64,000 nt of DNA, taken from assembly GCA_035628995.1 (NCBI GenBank), contig DASPIR010000023.1:62001-126000 (forward strand), written 5' to 3'. Source of the DNA: Clostridia bacterium. GTDB lineage: Bacteria; Bacillota; Clostridia; Lutisporales; Lutisporaceae. Of the stretch, positions 54,210 through 64,000 are shown piece by piece (the stretch's first letter is position 1; each line of letters opens with the position of its first letter). Below the pieces are notes generated by a model. It worked only from the letters and a program-made list of their open reading frames with translations, was not told where the DNA came from and made no database searches. Made by a program: the position numbers and the translations under genes.

Positions 54210-54710
54210 ATGGTTGAGAGAATAAAAAATAAAAAAGGTTTTACTATCATCGAGATAATGGTAGTTATCGCCTTGATCGGAATACTGGCAGCAGTGCTGG
54301 TACCACAATTCGGTGGAGTCAAAGACAAAGCAAGGGACGCTGGTGTCCTTACAAATGCAAAGATGGTAGAAGTCTATGTAGCATCAATAATTGATGATTT
54401 TACAAAAACAACTGCAATAGATGGAACAGATCCAGGCACTGGTGATATGATTGCTAAAATAAATACATACTTTGGTGATGCAGGTAGTCCATTAAAGAAT
54501 CCATATTCAGGTATTACAGATGGAGATAATGTTGTTGTAGTTGAAACAGCAGGAGACGATTATAGAGATGGTACTGCTGCTGTAGCTGATGGTGGGATTA
54601 TATATGTAGTAATAGATAATGATGCTGATAATCCTTTGACAGCATATATAAACGGCTTTGACGTAAAAGGAAACGAGATTACAAATTCACAAAGAAAAAT
54701 AGTAAGATAA
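54210..54710 (+). CDS. pilA: type IV major pilin (PilA-like prepilin)
   Basis: A 166-residue prepilin. The short basic leader ends KKG, so cleavage is before F11, and the mature protein starts FTIIEIMVVIALIGILAAVLVP with Glu at +5. The C-terminal globular part is rich in Asp and Gly and has no cysteines, as is usual in Gram-positive pilins. It precedes pilB but has its own terminator, so it can be made in excess of the assembly proteins. GGGGG precedes the start. Confidence 0.88.
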   Translation: MVERIKNKKGFTIIEIMVVIALIGILAAVLVPQFGGVKDKARDAGVLTNAKMVEVYVASIIDDFTKTTAIDGTDPGTGDMIAKINTYFGDAGSPLKNPYSGITDGDNVVVVETAGDDYRDGTAAVADGGIIYVVIDNDADNPLTAYINGFDVKGNEITNSQRKIVR

Positions 54711-54789: not shown

Positions 54790-56484
54790 ATGGACAGGAA
54801 CAGAAAAAAAAGACTTGGGGATATGTTGATTGATGCGCAGAAGATTAATTCTGAGCAGCTTTCTGTTGCCCTTGATGTGCAGAAAAGTTCAGGCAAAAGA
54901 CTTGGGGAAGTATTGGTAACAGAAGGGTTCATTGCTCAGGAAGATATTATAAAATTGTTGGAGACCCAGCTTGGTATCCCCAGAATAGATATGAAGAAGT
55001 TCGTGGTAGATCAAAAATCTGTAAAGCTTGTACCTGAAAATATTGCAAGGAAGCACGAGCTTATAGCGGTCCAGAATGATGGTGTGTTCATAACTGTTGC
55101 AATGAGTGATCCCCTGAACTATTTTGCTATTGATGATGTCAAGATGGCATCAGGAATGGATGTAAAAACCGTAATAGCGACTCGTGACGATATATTGGCC
55201 TCAATAGAGCGATATTACGGCGGAAGAGCTGCCGAACGAGCTGTAGAGGACTTCAAAAAGGAATATAGGGTTCTTGAAAAGGAAGCTGAGATAATAAGCG
55301 AGAGTGATATAAGCAGCGCACCTACTGTAAGGCTTGTCAACTCAATTATTGAGCAGGCTGCAAGAATTGGTGCCAGCGACATACACATTGAGGCTTTCGA
55401 AAAGGAAGTCAGAGTAAGGTTCAGGGTCGACGGTGTACTGCAGGAAATGATGAGAATGAGTAAGCAGACTTTGCCTGCAATCGTCACAAGAATTAAGATA
55501 CTTTCCGAGATGAACATAGCAGAGAAAAGGCTGCCGCAGGATGGCAGGATTGAGACTCAGGTAGACAGCAAGGATATTGACCTGAGAGTATCAACTCTCC
55601 CGACTATTTATGGGGAGAAAGTGGTAATAAGGTTATTGAACAAATCAGCATTCCTTTATTCAAAGGAGGAGTTGGGGCTTAGCGGTGAAGATATAAACAA
55701 ATTCAACAGAATAGTATCTAACCCTTATGGGATAATACTAGTTACAGGTCCTACGGGAAGCGGTAAATCTACTACTTTGTACAGCATATTGACTGAGCTT
55801 AACGATACGAAGAAGAATATAATAACGGTTGAAGATCCGGTTGAATATACAATAACGGGAATAAACCAGGTACAGGTAAATGTAAAAGCAGGCCTTACCT
55901 TTGCTAATGGTTTGAGATCCATCTTAAGGCAGGATCCGAATATCATAATGGTCGGTGAGATAAGAGATGCAGAGACAGCAGAAATGGCTGTAAGATCTTC
56001 ACTTACAGGGCATCTTGTACTGTCCACCCTTCACACCAATGATGCTCCGGGTGCAGTTACAAGGCTTGTAGATATGGGTGTTGAGCCTTTTCTTGTATCT
56101 TCCTCATTGGTTGGTGTAATAGCTCAAAGACTTGTAAGAAAGATTTGCACCAGCTGCAAGGAGGAATATACAGCTGACGAATGGGAAAAGAGACTCCTAA
56201 TGTACAATTATAATATGGATGAAAGTCTTGCGCTTCATAGAGGCAAAGGCTGTCAATACTGTGGAGGCAGCGGTTATAAAGGGAGAATAGCTATTTTCGA
56301 AATAATGCCTGTCACAAAGAAGCATAGAGCACTTATAGATAAAAGAGCCACAACAGATGAGCTTAGAGAGTTTTCAGTGAGAGAAGAGGGTATGACTACC
56401 CTCAGGCAAAACGCTATGAAGCTTGTATTGGACGGAGTTACCAGTGTGGAGGAATTGCTGAGAGTGACATACGAGCAGACATAA
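54790..56484 (+). CDS. pilB: type IV pilus extension ATPase PilB with MshEN domain
   Basis: A 564-residue assembly ATPase. The N-terminus has two 24-residue MshEN motifs at 8-31 and 37-60, separated by five residues. The second fits RLGxxLxxxG...Q very well, and this domain binds cyclic di-GMP in relatives. The GspE core carries Walker A GPTGSGKST at about 319, EDPVEYTI and an HTNDAPGA histidine box. A CTSC...CQYC zinc site at about 453-490 is typical of PilB. It starts the operon with pilT and pilC. Confidence 0.95.
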   Translation: MDRNRKKRLGDMLIDAQKINSEQLSVALDVQKSSGKRLGEVLVTEGFIAQEDIIKLLETQLGIPRIDMKKFVVDQKSVKLVPENIARKHELIAVQNDGVFITVAMSDPLNYFAIDDVKMASGMDVKTVIATRDDILASIERYYGGRAAERAVEDFKKEYRVLEKEAEIISESDISSAPTVRLVNSIIEQAARIGASDIHIEAFEKEVRVRFRVDGVLQEMMRMSKQTLPAIVTRIKILSEMNIAEKRLPQDGRIETQVDSKDIDLRVSTLPTIYGEKVVIRLLNKSAFLYSKEELGLSGEDINKFNRIVSNPYGIILVTGPTGSGKSTTLYSILTELNDTKKNIITVEDPVEYTITGINQVQVNVKAGLTFANGLRSILRQDPNIIMVGEIRDAETAEMAVRSSLTGHLVLSTLHTNDAPGAVTRLVDMGVEPFLVSSSLVGVIAQRLVRKICTSCKEEYTADEWEKRLLMYNYNMDESLALHRGKGCQYCGGSGYKGRIAIFEIMPVTKKHRALIDKRATTDELREFSVREEGMTTLRQNAMKLVLDGVTSVEELLRVTYEQT

Positions 56485-56499
56485 AGGGGTGCATTATAT

Positions 56500-57549
56500 A
56501 TGGGATTAAAAGAGCTTCTAAGTGCCGCAATAGAAAAAAAGGCCTCAGATCTCCATGTTACTGTGGGGGTTCCTCCAATGTTAAGAATAAATGGTTCATT
56601 ATGCCCTTATGGAGACTTGAAACTGTTCCCTCAGGATGTAGTTACTCTGGTTGAAGAGGTTCTGGAGGAAAAACAGCTGAAGCTGCTGGATATTAACGGC
56701 GACTTGGATACATCTTATTCTGTGGACGGGCTGGGAAGATTCAGATTTAATATTTTCAAGCAGAGAGGCACCTTCGCCTTTGTCGCACGAGCAATACCCT
56801 TTACAGTACCTGATATTAAAGAGTTAGGGCTTCCACCGATAGTAGGGGAGCTTGCAAATATTACAAAAGGGCTGGTACTTGTCACCGGGCCAACGGGCAG
56901 CGGCAAGTCAACAACTCTGGCGGCAATGCTTGATAAGATTAACAATGAGAGAGATGTACACATCATTACTTTAGAAGATCCTATAGAATTTCTTCACAGG
57001 CACAATAAGTGCATTATAAATCAAAGGGAAATAGGCTGCGACACCAAGAGCTTCGCAGCTGCATTGAGATCCTCCCTGAGGCAGGACCCTGATATAATAC
57101 TGGTAGGTGAAATGCGGGATCTGGATACAATAGCTACTGCGCTCACAGCGGCAGAGACAGGCCATTTGGTCTTGTCCACCCTGCACACCATAGGTGCGGC
57201 CAAGACAATTGACAGGATAATAGATGTGTTTCCTCCACACCAGCAGTCGCAAATCAGAGTTCAGCTTTCGACGGTGCTGCAGGCGGTTGTATCACAGCAG
57301 CTTATACCCAGGACAGACGGAAAGGGGCGGGTTGCTGCGGCTGAAGTAATGATAGCAAACCCTGCTATCAGAAATCTTATTCGCGAGGGTAAGAGCCACC
57401 AGATAGCTTCTTCCATTCAGACTGGAAGCAAATATGGGATGCAGTCCATGGACGCAGCAATAAACAATCTTTATAGAAGGGGTATAATTACAGAAGCAGA
57501 TGCATTAATATATGCTCTGGATTCTGAATTGGTGCTAAAGTTGGGATAG
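56500..57549 (+). CDS. pilT: pilus retraction ATPase PilT
   Basis: A 349-residue hexameric ATPase that disassembles pili and powers twitching. The N-terminal PAS-like part holds SDLHVTVG, Walker A GPTGSGKSTT is at about 129-138, and EDPIEFLH, a GEMRDLDT Asp box and HLVLSTLHT follow. The C-terminal AIRNLIREGKSHQI motif distinguishes PilT from PilB. It begins 16 bases after pilB. Confidence 0.95.
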   Translation: MGLKELLSAAIEKKASDLHVTVGVPPMLRINGSLCPYGDLKLFPQDVVTLVEEVLEEKQLKLLDINGDLDTSYSVDGLGRFRFNIFKQRGTFAFVARAIPFTVPDIKELGLPPIVGELANITKGLVLVTGPTGSGKSTTLAAMLDKINNERDVHIITLEDPIEFLHRHNKCIINQREIGCDTKSFAAALRSSLRQDPDIILVGEMRDLDTIATALTAAETGHLVLSTLHTIGAAKTIDRIIDVFPPHQQSQIRVQLSTVLQAVVSQQLIPRTDGKGRVAAAEVMIANPAIRNLIREGKSHQIASSIQTGSKYGMQSMDAAINNLYRRGIITEADALIYALDSELVLKLG

Positions 57550-57566
57550 GTTAGGAAGTGATGGTA

Positions 57567-58778
57567 ATGGCCTACTTTATATACAGGTCGGTTGACCAAA
57601 AAGGAAAAGTTATAAAAGGCAGTCTTGAGGCTATTGATAAAGCTGCTGCTTTATATATCATAAAGCAAAAAGGCTTTATCCCATTGGAGATAAATGTCGA
57701 TAATGACTTTACTCATTGGTTGAGAAAATTGAATTACAGCAAAGTGCCTGTAAAGGATATCGCAATACTGTGCAGACAGTTTGCGACTATCCTGACAGCT
57801 GGAGTAACAGTGCTTTCTGCGATGGACATGCTTAGGAAGCAGACCTCCAATAAGCAGCTCCGCAATGCAATTGATGCTGCTTTTGAGGATCTTCAGAAGG
57901 GAAGAACTCTGTCTCAGAGTCTAAGAGCCAGAGAAGGCGTTTTCCCTGAGCTTCTTGTAAGCATGATAGAAGCAGGTGAGCTTAGCGGTACATTGGACAG
58001 TACGATGGGCAGGATGGCTGTCCATTACGAGAAGGAAAGCTGGATAACCCAAAAGGTAAAGGCAGCTATGACATATCCTATGGTTCTTCTATCAGTATCT
58101 GTGCTTATGGTTATTTTTATGGTATATTTCATACTGCCTAATTTCATTACACTAATAGATACTTCAAATGGTGATATTCCTGCACTGACAAAGGCGGTTA
58201 TGAATGCAACAGAGTTTGCCCGTACCAAATGGTATATAATTTTAGGAGTATTGATTGCAGTTGTTGCAGCTTTCAAGTACATCACAGCAAGAGGGAATGG
58301 ACGTAGAGCATATCATAGAATGCTGCTCCGTGTTCCTGTCTTAGGCAAGGTAATAAGAAGGATAGTAGCCTCAAAATTCACAAGGACTCTGGGAATTTTA
58401 CTGGCAAGCGGGATTTCACTGCTGTCCTCTCTGGAGTCGGTAAGAAATGTCGTGGGTAATGCAATTGCAGAAGAAGCAATATGCAATGCATTAACTGCAG
58501 TGAAGAACGGTGAGGGATTGGCAGCTCCTCTTGAAGCAACACCGATATTTGATACAATGGTAGTAAAGATGATACAAATCGGTGAGGAAACAGGATCTCT
58601 GGATGAAATGCTGATAAAAACGGCAGATTTCTTCGATTCAGAAGTGGAGGCAGGGCTCACTCAGCTTATGCTGCTAATAGAGCCGATAATGCTTGTACTT
58701 ATGGGAGTTATAGTAGGAACTATAGTAATTGCCATGTTACTGCCAATGTATAGTATGCTGAATAATATAGGAGTTTAG
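57567..58778 (+). CDS. pilC: pilus inner-membrane platform protein PilC
   Basis: About 403 residues with two T2SF domains, each cytoplasmic helices followed by membrane segments: LSVSVLMVIFMVYFILPNFI near 175-195, IILGVLIAVVAAF near 225, and a final LMLLIEPIMLVLMGVIVG helix. It forms the platform on which PilB and PilT act. Of GTG 57558, ATG 57561 and ATG 57567, the last has the best spacing from TAGGAAG. A 123-base palindromic repeat follows its stop at once. Confidence 0.92.
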   Translation: MAYFIYRSVDQKGKVIKGSLEAIDKAAALYIIKQKGFIPLEINVDNDFTHWLRKLNYSKVPVKDIAILCRQFATILTAGVTVLSAMDMLRKQTSNKQLRNAIDAAFEDLQKGRTLSQSLRAREGVFPELLVSMIEAGELSGTLDSTMGRMAVHYEKESWITQKVKAAMTYPMVLLSVSVLMVIFMVYFILPNFITLIDTSNGDIPALTKAVMNATEFARTKWYIILGVLIAVVAAFKYITARGNGRRAYHRMLLRVPVLGKVIRRIVASKFTRTLGILLASGISLLSSLESVRNVVGNAIAEEAICNALTAVKNGEGLAAPLEATPIFDTMVVKMIQIGEETGSLDEMLIKTADFFDSEVEAGLTQLMLLIEPIMLVLMGVIVGTIVIAMLLPMYSMLNNIGV

Positions 58779-58779
58779 C

Positions 58780-58902
58780 AAAAACGGCGATAAGCGGTGC
58801 AATACTGCGTTGTGCTGCGGTCGAAAAGTCCTCACGTACAATATGTACGCTCCGGGCATTTCACCTTGCACGCCTTGTCTTGCTTGCTTCTAGCCATTTT
58901 CG
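58780..58902. repeat. 125-base imperfect palindrome, copy R2
   Basis: Near-identical relative of 38709-38833, with GTTGTGCTGCGGTCGAAAAG and GCTCCGGGCATTTC conserved. The termini AAAACGGCGATAAGC and GCTTCTAGCCATTTT are inverted. It starts one base after the pilC stop codon. Confidence 0.8.
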
Positions 58903-58935
58903 ATATTAGTAGTAAGTGAGAGGTATTAGAGCTAT

Positions 58936-59340
58936 ATGAGTATTGATGCAATAATTGTATATTCTTATATATTCTTTGTTGGGTGCTGCGCGGGAAGCTT
59001 TTATAATGTATGCATATACCGTCTTCCAAGGGGGGAGTCCCTTGTGAGGCCAAGGTCACATTGTACAAGCTGCGGTCATGCTCTTGGATTTTTGGATTTG
59101 ATCCCTGTACTGAGCTATTTGACATTAAAGGGAAGGTGCAGGTACTGTAAATCTGTTGTATCGCCGCGATACATGCTGGTTGAGATTATTTGCGGTATAA
59201 TGTTTGTAGGAGTTTTTCACTTTTACTTTATATCTCTGAAATCGCTGTTATTAGTTACAATATTGAGTATCGGACTGATTGCGGGCTTTATAGCCTTCGA
59301 TATGCAAGGCAGGTCCGGTAGGAGGAATAATAATGTTTGA
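58936..59340 (+). CDS. prepilin peptidase N-terminal (methyltransferase) domain protein
   Basis: A 134-residue membrane protein equal to the first half of PilD. AGSFYNVCIYRLP and the zinc-binding pairs CTSC (43, 46) and CRYC (68, 71) belong to the N-terminal domain linked to pilin N-methylation. One or two helices follow, and the protein ends just after FDMQ, where D122 would be the first catalytic Asp of a complete PilD. The second Asp and the rest of the peptidase are missing and occur in the separate gene at 61666. It overlaps pilM by 8 bases. Confidence 0.8.
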   Translation: MSIDAIIVYSYIFFVGCCAGSFYNVCIYRLPRGESLVRPRSHCTSCGHALGFLDLIPVLSYLTLKGRCRYCKSVVSPRYMLVEIICGIMFVGVFHFYFISLKSLLLVTILSIGLIAGFIAFDMQGRSGRRNNNV

Positions 59341-60367
59341 TAGATTGTACATTGAACTTGAGAATGATGCAATGAGATATATCTATGGTTCCATGTCAAG
59401 GAAAAAAGTGAATATAAGGAAATGGGGCATAAAGAACTTGACCGAAGGATGCTTTGCCAATGGCAGGGTAATGGATGAGGTTGAATTTATCAAGAGTCTT
59501 TCAGCGCTTAGGAAAGATTTGAAGATATTCCGTTGTACTGTTCATTTGACAGTGAATGATGGAAGCTTTATTACACGGCCTATTGAGCTTCCTATTTTGA
59601 AAGAAAAGGATATAGAGAAGCATCTTTCATTGGAAGCAGAGCAATATCTTCCAATTAATAAGAAAAACTTCCAGGTTGATTTCCGAGTTATAGAAAGAAG
59701 GAAAGAATCTGATGAAGCAGGAAGCAGCGTCATGGTCTCTGCCGGTCCCAAGGAGAACATAGAGAATATATTAAAATGCTTTGATAGATGCAGGCTAGAT
59801 GCGAAGGTTATTGACGTGTACCCTAATAATATATGCAGGCTTTTAAAGAATTTGGATGAAGAAGATTTTGCAGTTATAGATATGGGAAGACGGAGCATTA
59901 ATATAACTATTATAGAAAGTAAAAAATTCTATATGCACACAAATATACCAGTAAATATGGAATCGCTTTTTGAAGATTATATAAAGGACAACTCTATTGA
60001 AATGAATGATTTCCGACGTGAATATTTTTATGCAGGCTTTGATGCTTTGCAAATCAATAAAGATGATATTCTAATTAATGACAGCATGAGGGATACTCTT
60101 TCGGGCGTTGTAGGGCAAGTCTCACGATACTTGGATTATTTCAATTCCAGGCATTTCGGTAAAACAGTTGACAATGTATATGTAATCGGAGAAAATGGAA
60201 TGCTGAAAGGCTTGCGAAAAAGCATGAGCGACAGCTTCAATACAAACGTCACTATAGGCATGAAACCCTTTCCCCTACTTGATTCAATCAGAGGAAACTC
60301 ATTCCTGGAAGCGCAGATGGGCTACCACAGCTTACTTGGAATGATACTGCGGGGTAATAGTATATGA
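59333..60367 (+). CDS. pilM: PilM-like pilus assembly protein
   Basis: A 344-residue actin-like cytosolic protein. SLEAEQYLPINKKNFQVDFRV and FAVIDMGRRSINITII (the phosphate-binding fold) are typical of PilM. It links PilN to the cytoplasmic motor. ATG 59333 follows TAGGAGGA within the end of the preceding gene, and its stop overlaps the pilN start as ATGA. Confidence 0.85.
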   Translation: MFDRLYIELENDAMRYIYGSMSRKKVNIRKWGIKNLTEGCFANGRVMDEVEFIKSLSALRKDLKIFRCTVHLTVNDGSFITRPIELPILKEKDIEKHLSLEAEQYLPINKKNFQVDFRVIERRKESDEAGSSVMVSAGPKENIENILKCFDRCRLDAKVIDVYPNNICRLLKNLDEEDFAVIDMGRRSINITIIESKKFYMHTNIPVNMESLFEDYIKDNSIEMNDFRREYFYAGFDALQINKDDILINDSMRDTLSGVVGQVSRYLDYFNSRHFGKTVDNVYVIGENGMLKGLRKSMSDSFNTNVTIGMKPFPLLDSIRGNSFLEAQMGYHSLLGMILRGNSI

Positions 60368-60909
60368 GAGATATAAATCTTATTCCGAAGGGATATTTAC
60401 GAAAGAAAAGCAGGCCGGGCATTATTGTATTATGTGCTGTTTCTGCGGCATTGATATTATCACTGATGGTATATCTTTATATTGTACCATTAAATAATAT
60501 CAGAGCATTGGAGCAGGAAATCAAGAAATATGATGAGGTAGTAATTGATTATAATGTTTTGCAGAGTAAGATAGACAAAATGCAAGAGAATGAAGAAATT
60601 ATAAAAAAGAAGATAGAGGTACTGGATCAAATAAGCTCAAGCGAGGTAAAGCCATCAAGAGTGTTTGAACTGGTGAACAGTTCTTTGCCAAGTGACGTTT
60701 GGCTTACTAATGTGAATTATACATTTGTGAACGTTAGTGTGACTGCAGTGGCAGCGAGTGCTATTGGAGCTACCGAGTTTTACGTAGAGCTGAACAAAAT
60801 GGGTGAATTTAAAGATGTGGAGCTTAGCCCGATAACAGTAGATGAAAATGGCTACAATTTCACGATCCAATTTTCATTAAATACAGGAAGTGATAAGAAT
60901 GAAAATTAA
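60364..60909 (+). CDS. pilN: PilN-like pilus assembly protein
   Basis: A 181-residue single-pass protein. The N-terminal MRDINLIPKGYLRKK is the short PilM-binding motif of PilN, then a helix at about 19-40, a coiled coil at about 45-85 and a ferredoxin-like C-terminal part. It pairs with PilO outside the membrane. Start and stop overlap both neighbours, so the set is translationally coupled. Confidence 0.85.
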   Translation: MRDINLIPKGYLRKKSRPGIIVLCAVSAALILSLMVYLYIVPLNNIRALEQEIKKYDEVVIDYNVLQSKIDKMQENEEIIKKKIEVLDQISSSEVKPSRVFELVNSSLPSDVWLTNVNYTFVNVSVTAVAASAIGATEFYVELNKMGEFKDVELSPITVDENGYNFTIQFSLNTGSDKNEN

Positions 60910-61663
60910 GTTAAGTGTGAGGGAAGTGCTGCTTGTATCGCTACTTGCTGTTGCAGTGCTGATATATATATATATGAGTTATCTCCTATTCCCCAGCTAC
61001 ACACGTCTCGCAAAGCTCAATACAGAACTGATTCTGAAGAAGCAGATAGCGATAGATAGTGATAATGCCAAGAAGAGACTCGAAAATTTGGACAGCTTGT
61101 TGGCAAAGAGCAAAATACGGCTGGAAAATATGGAGAAGAAGATACCATACAATGTAAGATTGCCGGAATTAGTTGTGAATATCGACAGCAAGATAGCCAG
61201 CCTTGATATGGACATACAGACAATATCCATTGGAAAACCTGATACTGCTAATAAGGAGTATGACATAATACCTATCAATGTTTCGATGGAAGGCAAGTAT
61301 GACAATATAATAAAATTTATTAATTATATTGAGGATAATGACAGAAAGTTCATTATAGACAACTTTATATTAGCACCGATAACAAGAGCTGAGGCTATGC
61401 CCTTTGATATCTCCATGAGGACTTTTGTACTGAAGGATTCGAAGGAGGATGTAATTCCAGAGCCTGATGACTATTACTTCTTCAAGCACAATAACGGGAA
61501 AAGCTATCCATTCCTAAATAACGTTCAAAAGGTCAGTGTACCGGAAAAGGGCATTGAAAACGATATTGAAGAGATGGAAAAGAAATATGATAAATTGGAC
61601 GATATTATAGATGGGTTAAAAGGAATAATCCCTAATAATAATGAAATCGGAGAGGGAAATTAG
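60899..61663 (+). CDS. pilO: PilO-like pilus assembly protein
   Basis: A 254-residue protein with one N-terminal membrane helix (about 7-27), a coiled coil (about 30-75) and a C-terminal globular part with VSMEGKYDNIIKFINYIED, the PilO core pattern. The tail (residues 180-254) is long and charged. ATG 60899, preceded by GGAAGTG, is favoured over the GTG at 60890. Confidence 0.83.
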   Translation: MKIKLSVREVLLVSLLAVAVLIYIYMSYLLFPSYTRLAKLNTELILKKQIAIDSDNAKKRLENLDSLLAKSKIRLENMEKKIPYNVRLPELVVNIDSKIASLDMDIQTISIGKPDTANKEYDIIPINVSMEGKYDNIIKFINYIEDNDRKFIIDNFILAPITRAEAMPFDISMRTFVLKDSKEDVIPEPDDYYFFKHNNGKSYPFLNNVQKVSVPEKGIENDIEEMEKKYDKLDDIIDGLKGIIPNNNEIGEGN

Positions 61664-61665
61664 TT

Positions 61666-62316
61666 ATGTATTTTTTAGCTATAGCAGCAAGCTTAGTATG
61701 GACAACACTCGCTTTTTGGTCTGTCAGACTTTTGGAGAAAAAAATAGGCAGCAGCGGTGCGGAAAAAAGAATAAAATTCAACTTTGCCACACCGGTATTC
61801 ATACTATTTATTGCTGCTAATATGTATTTGGCATACAAAAAAGCAATGCTTGGAAATGCTTTGCTTTTGGACATCTTGCTGTTGACTTCAGTTGTTTCTT
61901 CGTTTCAGGATTTGAAATACCGAGAGATAGAAGATGAAGTTCACATTATAGCTTTAGGTGCAGGGATAGTAGGCCTTATAATTAAAGGCTTTAATCCAAT
62001 GGATTCCTTTCTTGGATTGCTGGTAGGCGGAGGAACTTTGCTTGCAATTGCGGTTTTGACAAGAGGGGGCATGGGGGGAGCAGATATAAAGCTAAATGCG
62101 GTATATGGGGCAATATTAGGATTTAAGCTTTCGGTACTTTCCTTGTTTATAGCTTTTATAGCCGGGGCTTTAATTAGCGTACTGCTGATAGTATTCAGAA
62201 TAAAAGGCAGGAAGGATATCATCCCATTTTCTCCATTTTTATCAATAGGGGCTTTGACTTCTTTCGCTTTTGGCGGGATAATAATAAATATGTACCTTAG
62301 CTTACTTAATGGTTAA
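61666..62316 (+). CDS. A24 prepilin peptidase domain protein
   Basis: A 216-residue polytopic aspartyl peptidase holding only the C-terminal half of PilD. The two catalytic aspartates are D82 in SSFQDLKYREI and D140 in GGMGGADIK. It has about six hydrophobic segments and no CxxC pairs. It is presumed to remove prepilin leader peptides. The methyltransferase half is encoded 2.3 kb upstream at 58936. CpaA/TadV-type peptidases have the same single-domain layout. It begins 3 bases after pilO. Confidence 0.88.
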   Translation: MYFLAIAASLVWTTLAFWSVRLLEKKIGSSGAEKRIKFNFATPVFILFIAANMYLAYKKAMLGNALLLDILLLTSVVSSFQDLKYREIEDEVHIIALGAGIVGLIIKGFNPMDSFLGLLVGGGTLLAIAVLTRGGMGGADIKLNAVYGAILGFKLSVLSLFIAFIAGALISVLLIVFRIKGRKDIIPFSPFLSIGALTSFAFGGIIINMYLSLLNG

Positions 62317-62338: not shown

Positions 62339-62614
62339 ATGTACAGACTGAAAAATTACATGGAAGAACTGGTTGCTAAAAAAACAGAAGACATATTAAG
62401 GCTCATGAGCATATGCAAGTGCGAGAAATGCAAGTTGGATATCATGGCACTGGCATTAAATGATCTTCCATCAAAGTATGTGGTTACTGATATGGGAGAG
62501 CTTTTCACAAAGCTCAGGGAACTGGAACAGCAGTCCGAAGTTGATGTTGAGACATCGATAATAAAAGCTGCAATATTTGTCGGCAAGAACCCCAAGCATA
62601 ATGTCGCAGAATAA
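62339..62614 (+). CDS. comFB: ComFB family protein
   Basis: A 91-residue helical protein of the late-competence ComFB family. The family pattern of N-terminal helix, a cysteine cluster CKCEKC (C26, C28, C31) and MALALNDLPSKYV is clear. Cyanobacterial homologues bind cyclic di-GMP and affect pilus-linked behaviour. A pilus operon is a fitting site for such a sensor. AGGGGGAC precedes the start. Confidence 0.83.
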   Translation: MYRLKNYMEELVAKKTEDILRLMSICKCEKCKLDIMALALNDLPSKYVVTDMGELFTKLRELEQQSEVDVETSIIKAAIFVGKNPKHNVAE

Positions 62615-62633: not shown

Positions 62634-63077
62634 ATGTTTGATAGATACATCCGAAATAAAAAAGGTCTCAGTCTGGTAGAGGTATTAGTGGCAGCTGCAC
62701 TTTTAATCCTTGTTTTCACAGGTTTCGTCAATGCTTTCTATTATAGTGCGAATCTCAAGGTTAACAGTCAGAACAGGCTTCAAGCACTTCTTAAAGCTCA
62801 GGCATGCCTTGAGGAGATAAGAGGCTCCCGTGGAGAGGAAAGCTATGAATGGTCTGATATTAGTGAGCTTGAAGCCTGGCTTGAGGACGAAAAGGAATAT
62901 ACAGAAAACAGCGCTGGAGCATATAAAAAAGATAATATTGTTATATCCCTCACAAGTCCTGATACGGGGATTCCGGATAAGCTGATACCCATTTACGTTG
63001 AAGTGAGCTACGAGGATCAGATGGACAAAGGAAAACAACGGTCAGTGAAGCTTATGACAAGGCTTAGAGAATTTTAG
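62634..63077 (+). CDS. minor pilin with type IV prepilin leader (PilV-like)
   Basis: A 147-residue prepilin. The leader ends RNKKG, and the mature protein starts LSLVEVLVAAALLILVFTGF with Glu at +5. The short acidic C-terminal part has no clear domain. It probably forms part of the pilus tip complex with the next two genes, as in PilV/PilX/PilW sets. It lies 20 bases after comFB. Confidence 0.8.
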   Translation: MFDRYIRNKKGLSLVEVLVAAALLILVFTGFVNAFYYSANLKVNSQNRLQALLKAQACLEEIRGSRGEESYEWSDISELEAWLEDEKEYTENSAGAYKKDNIVISLTSPDTGIPDKLIPIYVEVSYEDQMDKGKQRSVKLMTRLREF

Positions 63078-63099: not shown

Positions 63100-63486
63100 A
63101 TGACTTTAAAGCTTATGAATAATAAAAAAGGCTCTGCCTTTTTATACGTGACTATGGTTGTTTTCATTGTATTATTGATGGGTGGGATGATTGTCAGCCT
63201 GCTTACATCTGAAATTCGTGTAAACAAGATTACAGAAAAACGGATAGAGGCAAAGTATTTGGCAGAGGCTGGAGTTGAGCATGCGATGCTTGGATCAGGG
63301 ACTGCCGGTTCAGCAATAATCAAAGATAAAGACGGTAACACTCTTTATGAATATACCTACTCAGTATCTGGGGAATCAATAAATATTACCTCCTATGGAT
63401 ATCTGGATAATAAAATAAAGATGAAAATTGACTGCAGTGTAAAGAATGACTCGATAACTGTGTGGAATGAAACTCCATTGCAATGA
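63100..63486 (+). CDS. PilX-like pilus assembly protein lacking Glu5
   Basis: A 128-residue protein with the leader NNKKG followed by SAFLYVTMVVFIVLLMGGMI. The helix is pilin-like, but Glu at +5 is absent, as is common in PilX or GspK-like tip subunits. IEAKYLAEAGVEHAMLGSG matches the PilX signature. It is a likely minor tip component. Confidence 0.75.
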   Translation: MTLKLMNNKKGSAFLYVTMVVFIVLLMGGMIVSLLTSEIRVNKITEKRIEAKYLAEAGVEHAMLGSGTAGSAIIKDKDGNTLYEYTYSVSGESINITSYGYLDNKIKMKIDCSVKNDSITVWNETPLQ

Positions 63487-63504
63487 TAAGGCTTGGTGAT
63501 ATGC

Positions 63505-64000
63505 GTGAGAGAGAGCAGTATTTACAACAAAAAGGGCTTCACTTTACTGGAGCTCTTAATCGCTGTTTCGATTTTCGGAATCATTTTGGTAATGACCTTC
63601 AGCATTATCAACTATGTGCCAAAGCTTGCAAAAACTGAATCAAGCCAATACAGCGAAAGAACAGATGTAAGAAGGGCATTGACAGAAATCACAGGCACTA
63701 TACAAAATGCAAGCACTATCACCTTTCCGTCTATAGAGTTCACTATGCCAAGCGGAGAAGAGATTTCTTATGAATATAATGGTAAAAATGTCAATAAGAT
63801 AGTCAATGGCACACCATACAAGCTTATGGAATCAGTGGATGAATTCGAAATTACAGCTGAAGAGGATCACTTGTTCAATATACATATAAAGACCTCAAAA
63901 GAGGGAAAAGATTATGATTTCAAAGTGGAGAGGCGAAGAGACGGAAGCACTAAGTCTGATGCTGAAATAAGCACGATTTCACCTGCAACTGCAGTATTTG
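63505..64000 (+). CDS. minor pilin/pseudopilin (PilW-like), partial at right edge
   Basis: The frame is open to the window end, giving 165 codons so far. GTG 63505 follows GGTGAT. The leader MRESSIYNKKG precedes FTLLELLIAVSIFGIILVMT with Glu at +5. The visible soluble part is rich in Ser, Glu and Lys. With the previous two genes it completes a PilV/PilX/PilW-like trio. The true C-terminus is outside the window. Confidence 0.75.
   Translation, partial: MRESSIYNKKGFTLLELLIAVSIFGIILVMTFSIINYVPKLAKTESSQYSERTDVRRALTEITGTIQNASTITFPSIEFTMPSGEEISYEYNGKNVNKIVNGTPYKLMESVDEFEITAEEDHLFNIHIKTSKEGKDYDFKVERRRDGSTKSDAEISTISPATAVF

Follow-up and report, generated by a model that had tools for sequence, protein, structure and literature searches.

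Prepilin methyltransferase and prepilin peptidase domains are encoded by two separate genes in a clostridial type IV pilus cluster

The enzyme that processes type IV pilins is usually bifunctional, in that it cleaves the prepilin and then methylates the new end. How, then, did the domains for the two activities come to lie in two genes of one type IV pilus cluster, as they do in a 64,000-nucleotide stretch of a Clostridia bacterium genome (hereafter the window)? On the + strand of the window, the cluster reads prepilin, pilB, pilT, pilC, a gene for an A24_N protein, pilM, pilN, pilO, a gene for an A24 peptidase, comFB and prepilin-like genes. We refer to the A24_N gene (58936–59340) and its product as the N-half, and to the A24 peptidase gene (61666–62316) and its product as the C-half; the two genes share a strand within this one tightly packed cluster. 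We propose, with a probability of about 0.6, that the two genes represent a division of labour reached by complementary loss and not by fission of a single gene.

An earlier note on this DNA had described a methyltransferase gene and a peptidase gene with pilM, pilN and pilO between them, and Pfam searches bear this description out: PF06750 matches only the N-half and PF01478 only the C-half. The residues assigned to each protein were also found where expected, with both CxxC pairs in the N-half and D82 and D140 in the C-half. Genome-wide absences were assessed throughout by profile searches of the assembly. In the assembly from which the window comes (3.65 Mb, 99.25% complete), these gave one PF06750 match and one PF01478 match, and no intact PilD was detected elsewhere in the genome. 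No NCBIfam model matched either half, and phmmer searches of the two proteins against PDB returned no match. A frameshift artefact is not apparent, as the N-half frame reads across the ribosome-binding site of pilM and ends after the first 8 bases of that gene. Frameshift or assembly error was rejected, there being no space for a peptidase half ahead of pilM on this 741-kb contig. The observation stands and, within the open-access literature searched, is unreported; no report of split, stand-alone or duplicated prepilin peptidases was found there.

The N-half is composed of a first transmembrane helix (TM1), a zinc loop carrying C43/C46 and C68/C71, TM2 and TM3, with no second catalytic domain. 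It keeps 16 of the 16 invariant A24_N columns in a 41-row alignment, and its PF06750 score of 117 bits is as high as that of many intact PilDs. AlphaFold2 predicted three long helices around the zinc-loop region, with a predicted local distance difference test score (pLDDT) of 91, and a fold search of the N-half against PDB gave nothing credible. Full PilDs have the catalytic Asp at +37 relative to the Glu of the conserved VE motif (28 of the 28 with parsable spacing). Counted from E83 of the N-half, this position is Ala120, a column that is Asp in all 46 full PilDs of the alignment (46/46), while the Asp of the N-half FDMQ sequence, D122, is at +39. The earlier statement that the N-half ends at the first catalytic Asp is thus off by two residues. 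The alignment indicates that the N-half lost the first catalytic Asp (Asp1) by substitution and the second along with the missing C-terminal half. Because an intact PilD sits between pilC and pilM both in G005, a genome of the same genus, and in a locus of a Clostridia metagenome-assembled genome (L003), the N-half can be said to occupy the PilD position. Its frame running into pilM fits a deletion that would have fused the part of pilD up to and including TM3 with the start of pilM.

The C-half scores 61.5 bits against PF01478, compared with a curated cut-off of 26.5, and is without the zinc CxxC loop. AlphaFold2 predicted eight helices with a pLDDT of 86 overall and of only 55–73 across the first 60 residues; PilD also has eight helices (PMC10191384). 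A PilD-like C-terminal RKDxxPFxPF stretch is kept, and TM1–TM2 of the C-half are too diverged in sequence comparison to prove descent from PilD. In a tree examined for grouping with TadV-type sequences, the C-half joins one lone A24 protein of genome G008 (L112) on a very long branch and not the other lone A24 proteins. A Foldseek search of the C-half against PDB returned FlaK (3s0x) as the top structure, with a probability of 0.91, TM-scores of 0.41–0.46 and an E-value of 0.3.

Two sister species of the same genus, G001 and G003, carry the C-half (65% identity) and comFB between a HAD gene and downstream endonuclease IV-like and EF-P genes. The blocks of pil genes that flank this pair in the window are absent at the G001 and G003 locus. 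Comparison of the G001 and G003 C-halves gave a ratio of nonsynonymous to synonymous substitution rates (dN/dS) of 0.29, which corresponds to purifying selection. Profile searches found no A24_N match in either genome; G001 is 71% and G003 80% complete, so that absences elsewhere in them are uncertain, and in both the locus itself is contained in a single contig. A separate case was seen in G004, also of this genus (L069/L075), where a lone PilD-like peptidase of 213 aa, from which the zinc loop is cleanly missing, lies away from any pil operon. It groups with the G005 PilD (98/93) and represents a third loss of the zinc loop.

The genome of the window also holds a Tad locus (G000:C10, L238:10801–17795) that encodes Flp (L238:17613–17795), TadE, a TadG-like protein, RcpC/CpaB, a TadZ-like protein, an ATPase and two platform proteins, and no A24 gene was found within it. 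No A24 protein other than the C-half was found in the genome, which leaves the C-half as the sole known candidate for cutting both Flp and the type IV prepilins. An orthologue of the Tad locus is present in G003 at 68–88% identity and, as a partial copy at a contig edge, in G001. The genomes G002, G004 and G005 are without the C-half and gave no platform match of this Tad type.

We extended the comparison to 393 genomes of the class, of which 203 have an A24_N match. Among the matches listed, only three are short A24_N frames, namely that of the window (136 aa), one in G408 and one in G321. G408 was rejected as another split, because a transposase gene interrupts its PilD and the gene is broken; the transposase gene lies in the region after TM3 (L131:2100–4090) and the C-terminal part follows beyond it. 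Through G321 we reached a second clostridial family, f83, in which most A24_N proteins are without GxGD and separate zinc-less A24 peptidases occur; G321 itself has one A24_N protein and no A24 peptidase match in its genome. Some of the f83 A24_N proteins measure about 150–185 aa and others about 240–290 aa with a degenerate C-terminal part, and a canonical PilD was found only in G429. The idea that methyltransferase-only proteins keep Asp1 was rejected, as alignment showed this residue to be gone in 19 of 19 f83 A24_N proteins as well as in the N-half. The column of N-half D122, two residues after the lost Asp1, is Asp in 14 of these 19 methyltransferase-only proteins. Most f83 A24_N genes lie outside any pil operon, many of them next to a trigger-factor-like gene. 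In the loci read (L154, L149, L151, L153 and L161 among them), A24_N-only proteins conserved in one genus stand beside such a gene. The f83 peptidases group in a clade of their own that excludes the C-half (support 100/99), and a clade joining them with the C-half gave a marginal p-AU of 0.046 in the approximately unbiased test. A single origin of all methyltransferase-only proteins was not rejected (p-AU 0.60); independence is therefore supported for the peptidase side only.

Two related enzymes that decayed in complementary ways, and not one gene that broke in two, are the probable origin of the arrangement in the window. The C-half would be a general prepilin peptidase that cuts Flp/Tad prepilins as well as the type IV prepilins encoded in the pil operon, and its presence as a resident zinc-less enzyme may have made the peptidase half of the operon's PilD redundant. 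A deletion beginning after TM3 would then have brought the ribosome-binding site of pilM up against what remained of PilD. With the remaining catalytic Asp changed to Ala, the gene would have been kept only for type IV pilin methylation, and the N-half would methylate in trans those type IV pilins that the C-half cuts. In PilD, zinc is required for methylation and not for cleavage (PMC3584216), and pilus systems can share or exchange their prepilin peptidases (PMC6668835). Cleavage and methylation may be under separate control, as suggested in the earlier note.

Several points weigh against an origin by complementary loss. The enzyme activities of both halves are deduced from sequence. The second-Asp motif of the C-half is GGAD, where GxGD stands in every other A24 protein whose site was located by the motif scan, and catalysis is therefore not assured; a review cites the suggestion, made in studies of Sulfolobus PibD, that the group be renamed GxHyD (PMC4343526), so that the third motif position may tolerate change. 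The C-half lies on a long branch of the peptidase tree, and its sister group, PilD or another A24 lineage, is not firmly placed. The N-domain tree had too few columns to place the PilD from which the N-half came, and no genome was found with both an intact PilD and the C-half, which is the expected intermediate. Because the N-half is known from one genome only, selection on it is not directly measurable. The presence of the C-half tracks the peptidase-less Tad locus in three genomes versus three, which is correlation and not proof. Further lone A24 genes occur in G001 and G003 beside a second Tad-like locus, and these genes, together with the incompleteness of the two genomes, leave the link between the C-half and the Tad locus only correlative.

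The alternative put forward in the earlier note, a true fission in which a single pilD was cut into N- and C-terminal genes later separated by pilM–pilO, would agree with each domain being present once, in the same operon, and with the absence of an intact PilD. However, the pieces of a cut gene would not overlap, whereas TM1, TM2 and TM3 are contained in both proteins. The tail of the N-half (residues 97–124) scored 20.7 against the PilD TM3 columns, compared with a mean of −13.0 (standard deviation 8.3) for shuffled sequences, of which 0 of 2000 scored as high, and the two halves together amount to 350 aa compared with about 250 aa for a full PilD. Fission is further opposed by the peptidase standing alone at the same locus in both sister species and by the Ala at the catalytic column, which means that the N-half does not merely stop ahead of the active site. 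We consider a fission origin very unlikely. Of the earlier account, then, the two genes and the missing intact PilD stand, and the fission and the position of the Asp do not.

Other alternatives concern what the two proteins do. The N-half might be a decaying remnant or a non-enzymatic protein, with pilins cut but not methylated. In favour of this, Pseudomonas aeruginosa pilus assembly does not need methylation (PMC3584216; PMC13170266), and this N-half was found in a single genome. However, the gene is intact and its end overlaps the start of pilM, the invariant A24_N residues and a high domain score are preserved, and methyltransferase-only proteins are widespread in f83, all of which makes a remnant unlikely. 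A heteromeric PilD-like complex, with both proteins needed for cleavage and for methylation, would be in line with two membrane proteins encoded in one cluster. We regard it as quite improbable, as the C-half is maintained by selection in genomes that gave no A24_N match, its predicted complete eight-helix fold would need no helices from the N-half, and the zinc domain is dispensable for cleavage by PilD (PMC3584216). It is similarly hard to credit that the C-half serves the Tad pilus only and cannot cut type IV prepilins, leaving the pil operon without function or dependent on an unrecognised peptidase. The distribution of the C-half, which follows the peptidase-less Tad locus, and its unusual GGAD motif would both fit this explanation, but the C-half gene lies inside the pil cluster, 2 bases past pilO, the remaining pil open reading frames (ORFs) are intact, and exchange of peptidases between systems is documented (PMC6668835).

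The two proteins can be compared with several known systems. The pair resembles the bifunctional prepilin peptidases PilD, GspO and ComC in having both domains, in the location of the N-half between pilC and pilM, in the zinc CxxC pairs and in the eight helices predicted for the C-half. It differs in that the activities reside in two genes with one Pfam domain per protein, the N-half having three membrane helices and neither catalytic Asp, and the C-half having no zinc loop and GGAD in place of GxGD. TadV and CpaA, prepilin peptidases of Tad (T4c) pili, are similar to the C-half as A24 peptidases without an A24_N domain, and the C-half probably serves the Tad pilus as well. However, the C-half has 216 aa and eight predicted helices, compared with 142–150 aa for several lone A24 proteins of the same genus, and its gene lies in a type IV pilus cluster and not in a Tad locus. 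Archaeal FlaK/PibD are likewise peptidase-only A24 enzymes; FlaK was the best PDB match and has QDxxxREIED around Asp1 in common with the C-half. FlaK has six transmembrane helices (PMC4471445), whereas eight are predicted in the C-half, which gave no direct phmmer match to FlaK. Family f83 exhibits the same complementary loss, with A24_N proteins that lack GxGD and separate peptidases of similar size that lack the zinc cysteines. In contrast to the window, its zinc-less peptidases form a separate clade and most of its A24_N genes lie outside pil operons.

Stand-alone A24_N proteins may be recurrent trans-acting prepilin N-methyltransferases in at least two clostridial families, with one peptidase serving several pilus systems and only some of the pilins being methylated; we hold this broader proposal to be about evenly balanced. 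As of a 2014 review, the zinc domain alone had not been formally demonstrated to act as a methyltransferase (PMC4471445). Natural genes with one activity each would allow either step to be removed or added with no need for point mutants, and would reveal whether the zinc domain methylates by itself. The pattern also shows how an enzyme common to Tad and type IV pili can alter gene content, and pilus-system annotation built around a two-domain PilD may misinterpret genomes of this kind. The interest of the locus is mainly that nature has split two activities that are usually studied in one protein.

Table 1. Genes of the type IV pilus cluster in the window, with positions, strand and supporting evidence
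Feature	Position	Strand	Evidence
Type IV prepilin, probable major pilin, KKG/FTIIE processing site	54210..54710	+	PF07963 N_methyl, E 2.5e-8
PilB extension ATPase	54790..56484	+	ORF; 53% identity to PilB-like protein of the G005 pilus operon
PilT retraction ATPase	56500..57549	+	ORF; 59% identity to PilT-like protein of G005
PilC platform protein	57558..58778	+	Two PF00482 matches at G000:C23:119768-120745
N-half, stand-alone A24_N (zinc, putative pilin N-methyltransferase), 134 aa	58936..59340	+	PF06750 A24_N_bact, 116.8 bits, E 4.5e-34
PilM	59333..60367	+	PF11104, E 1e-21; 8-base overlap of pilM start with end of N-half gene
PilN	60364..60909	+	PF05137, E 7.9e-8
PilO	60890..61663	+	PF04350, E 1.7e-11; 2 bases between pilO end and C-half start
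C-half, stand-alone zinc-less A24 prepilin peptidase, 216 aa, D82 and D140, GGAD	61666..62316	+	PF01478 Peptidase_A24, 61.5 bits, E 1.2e-16
ComFB	62339..62614	+	PF10719, E 1e-24
Minor prepilin, KKG/LSLVE processing site	62634..63077	+	PF07963 at cut-off, 21.2 bits
Start of minor prepilin, 600 aa in full, carbohydrate-binding domain CBM_X2; extends beyond window	63493..64000	+	PF07963, E 1.4e-8

The gap between pilC and the N-half (58779–58935) contains a palindromic stretch, CGTACAATATGTACG, of which there is one copy in the window. Downstream of the C-half, the comFB gene adjoins the zinc-less peptidase in the window and does so even without a pilus operon (L073 and L074); a functional link of ComFB with the zinc-less peptidase is possible. 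A prepilin-like protein at 63100–63486 has the sequence KKGSAFLYV, without the usual Glu at +5, and gave no N_methyl match. The 600-aa prepilin that runs past the end of the window is complete at L237:1494–3296, where an N_methyl motif is accompanied by a weak ComGF match, CBM_X2 (E 2.5e-22) and an Ig-like domain, and its domain content makes a carbohydrate-binding pilin possible.

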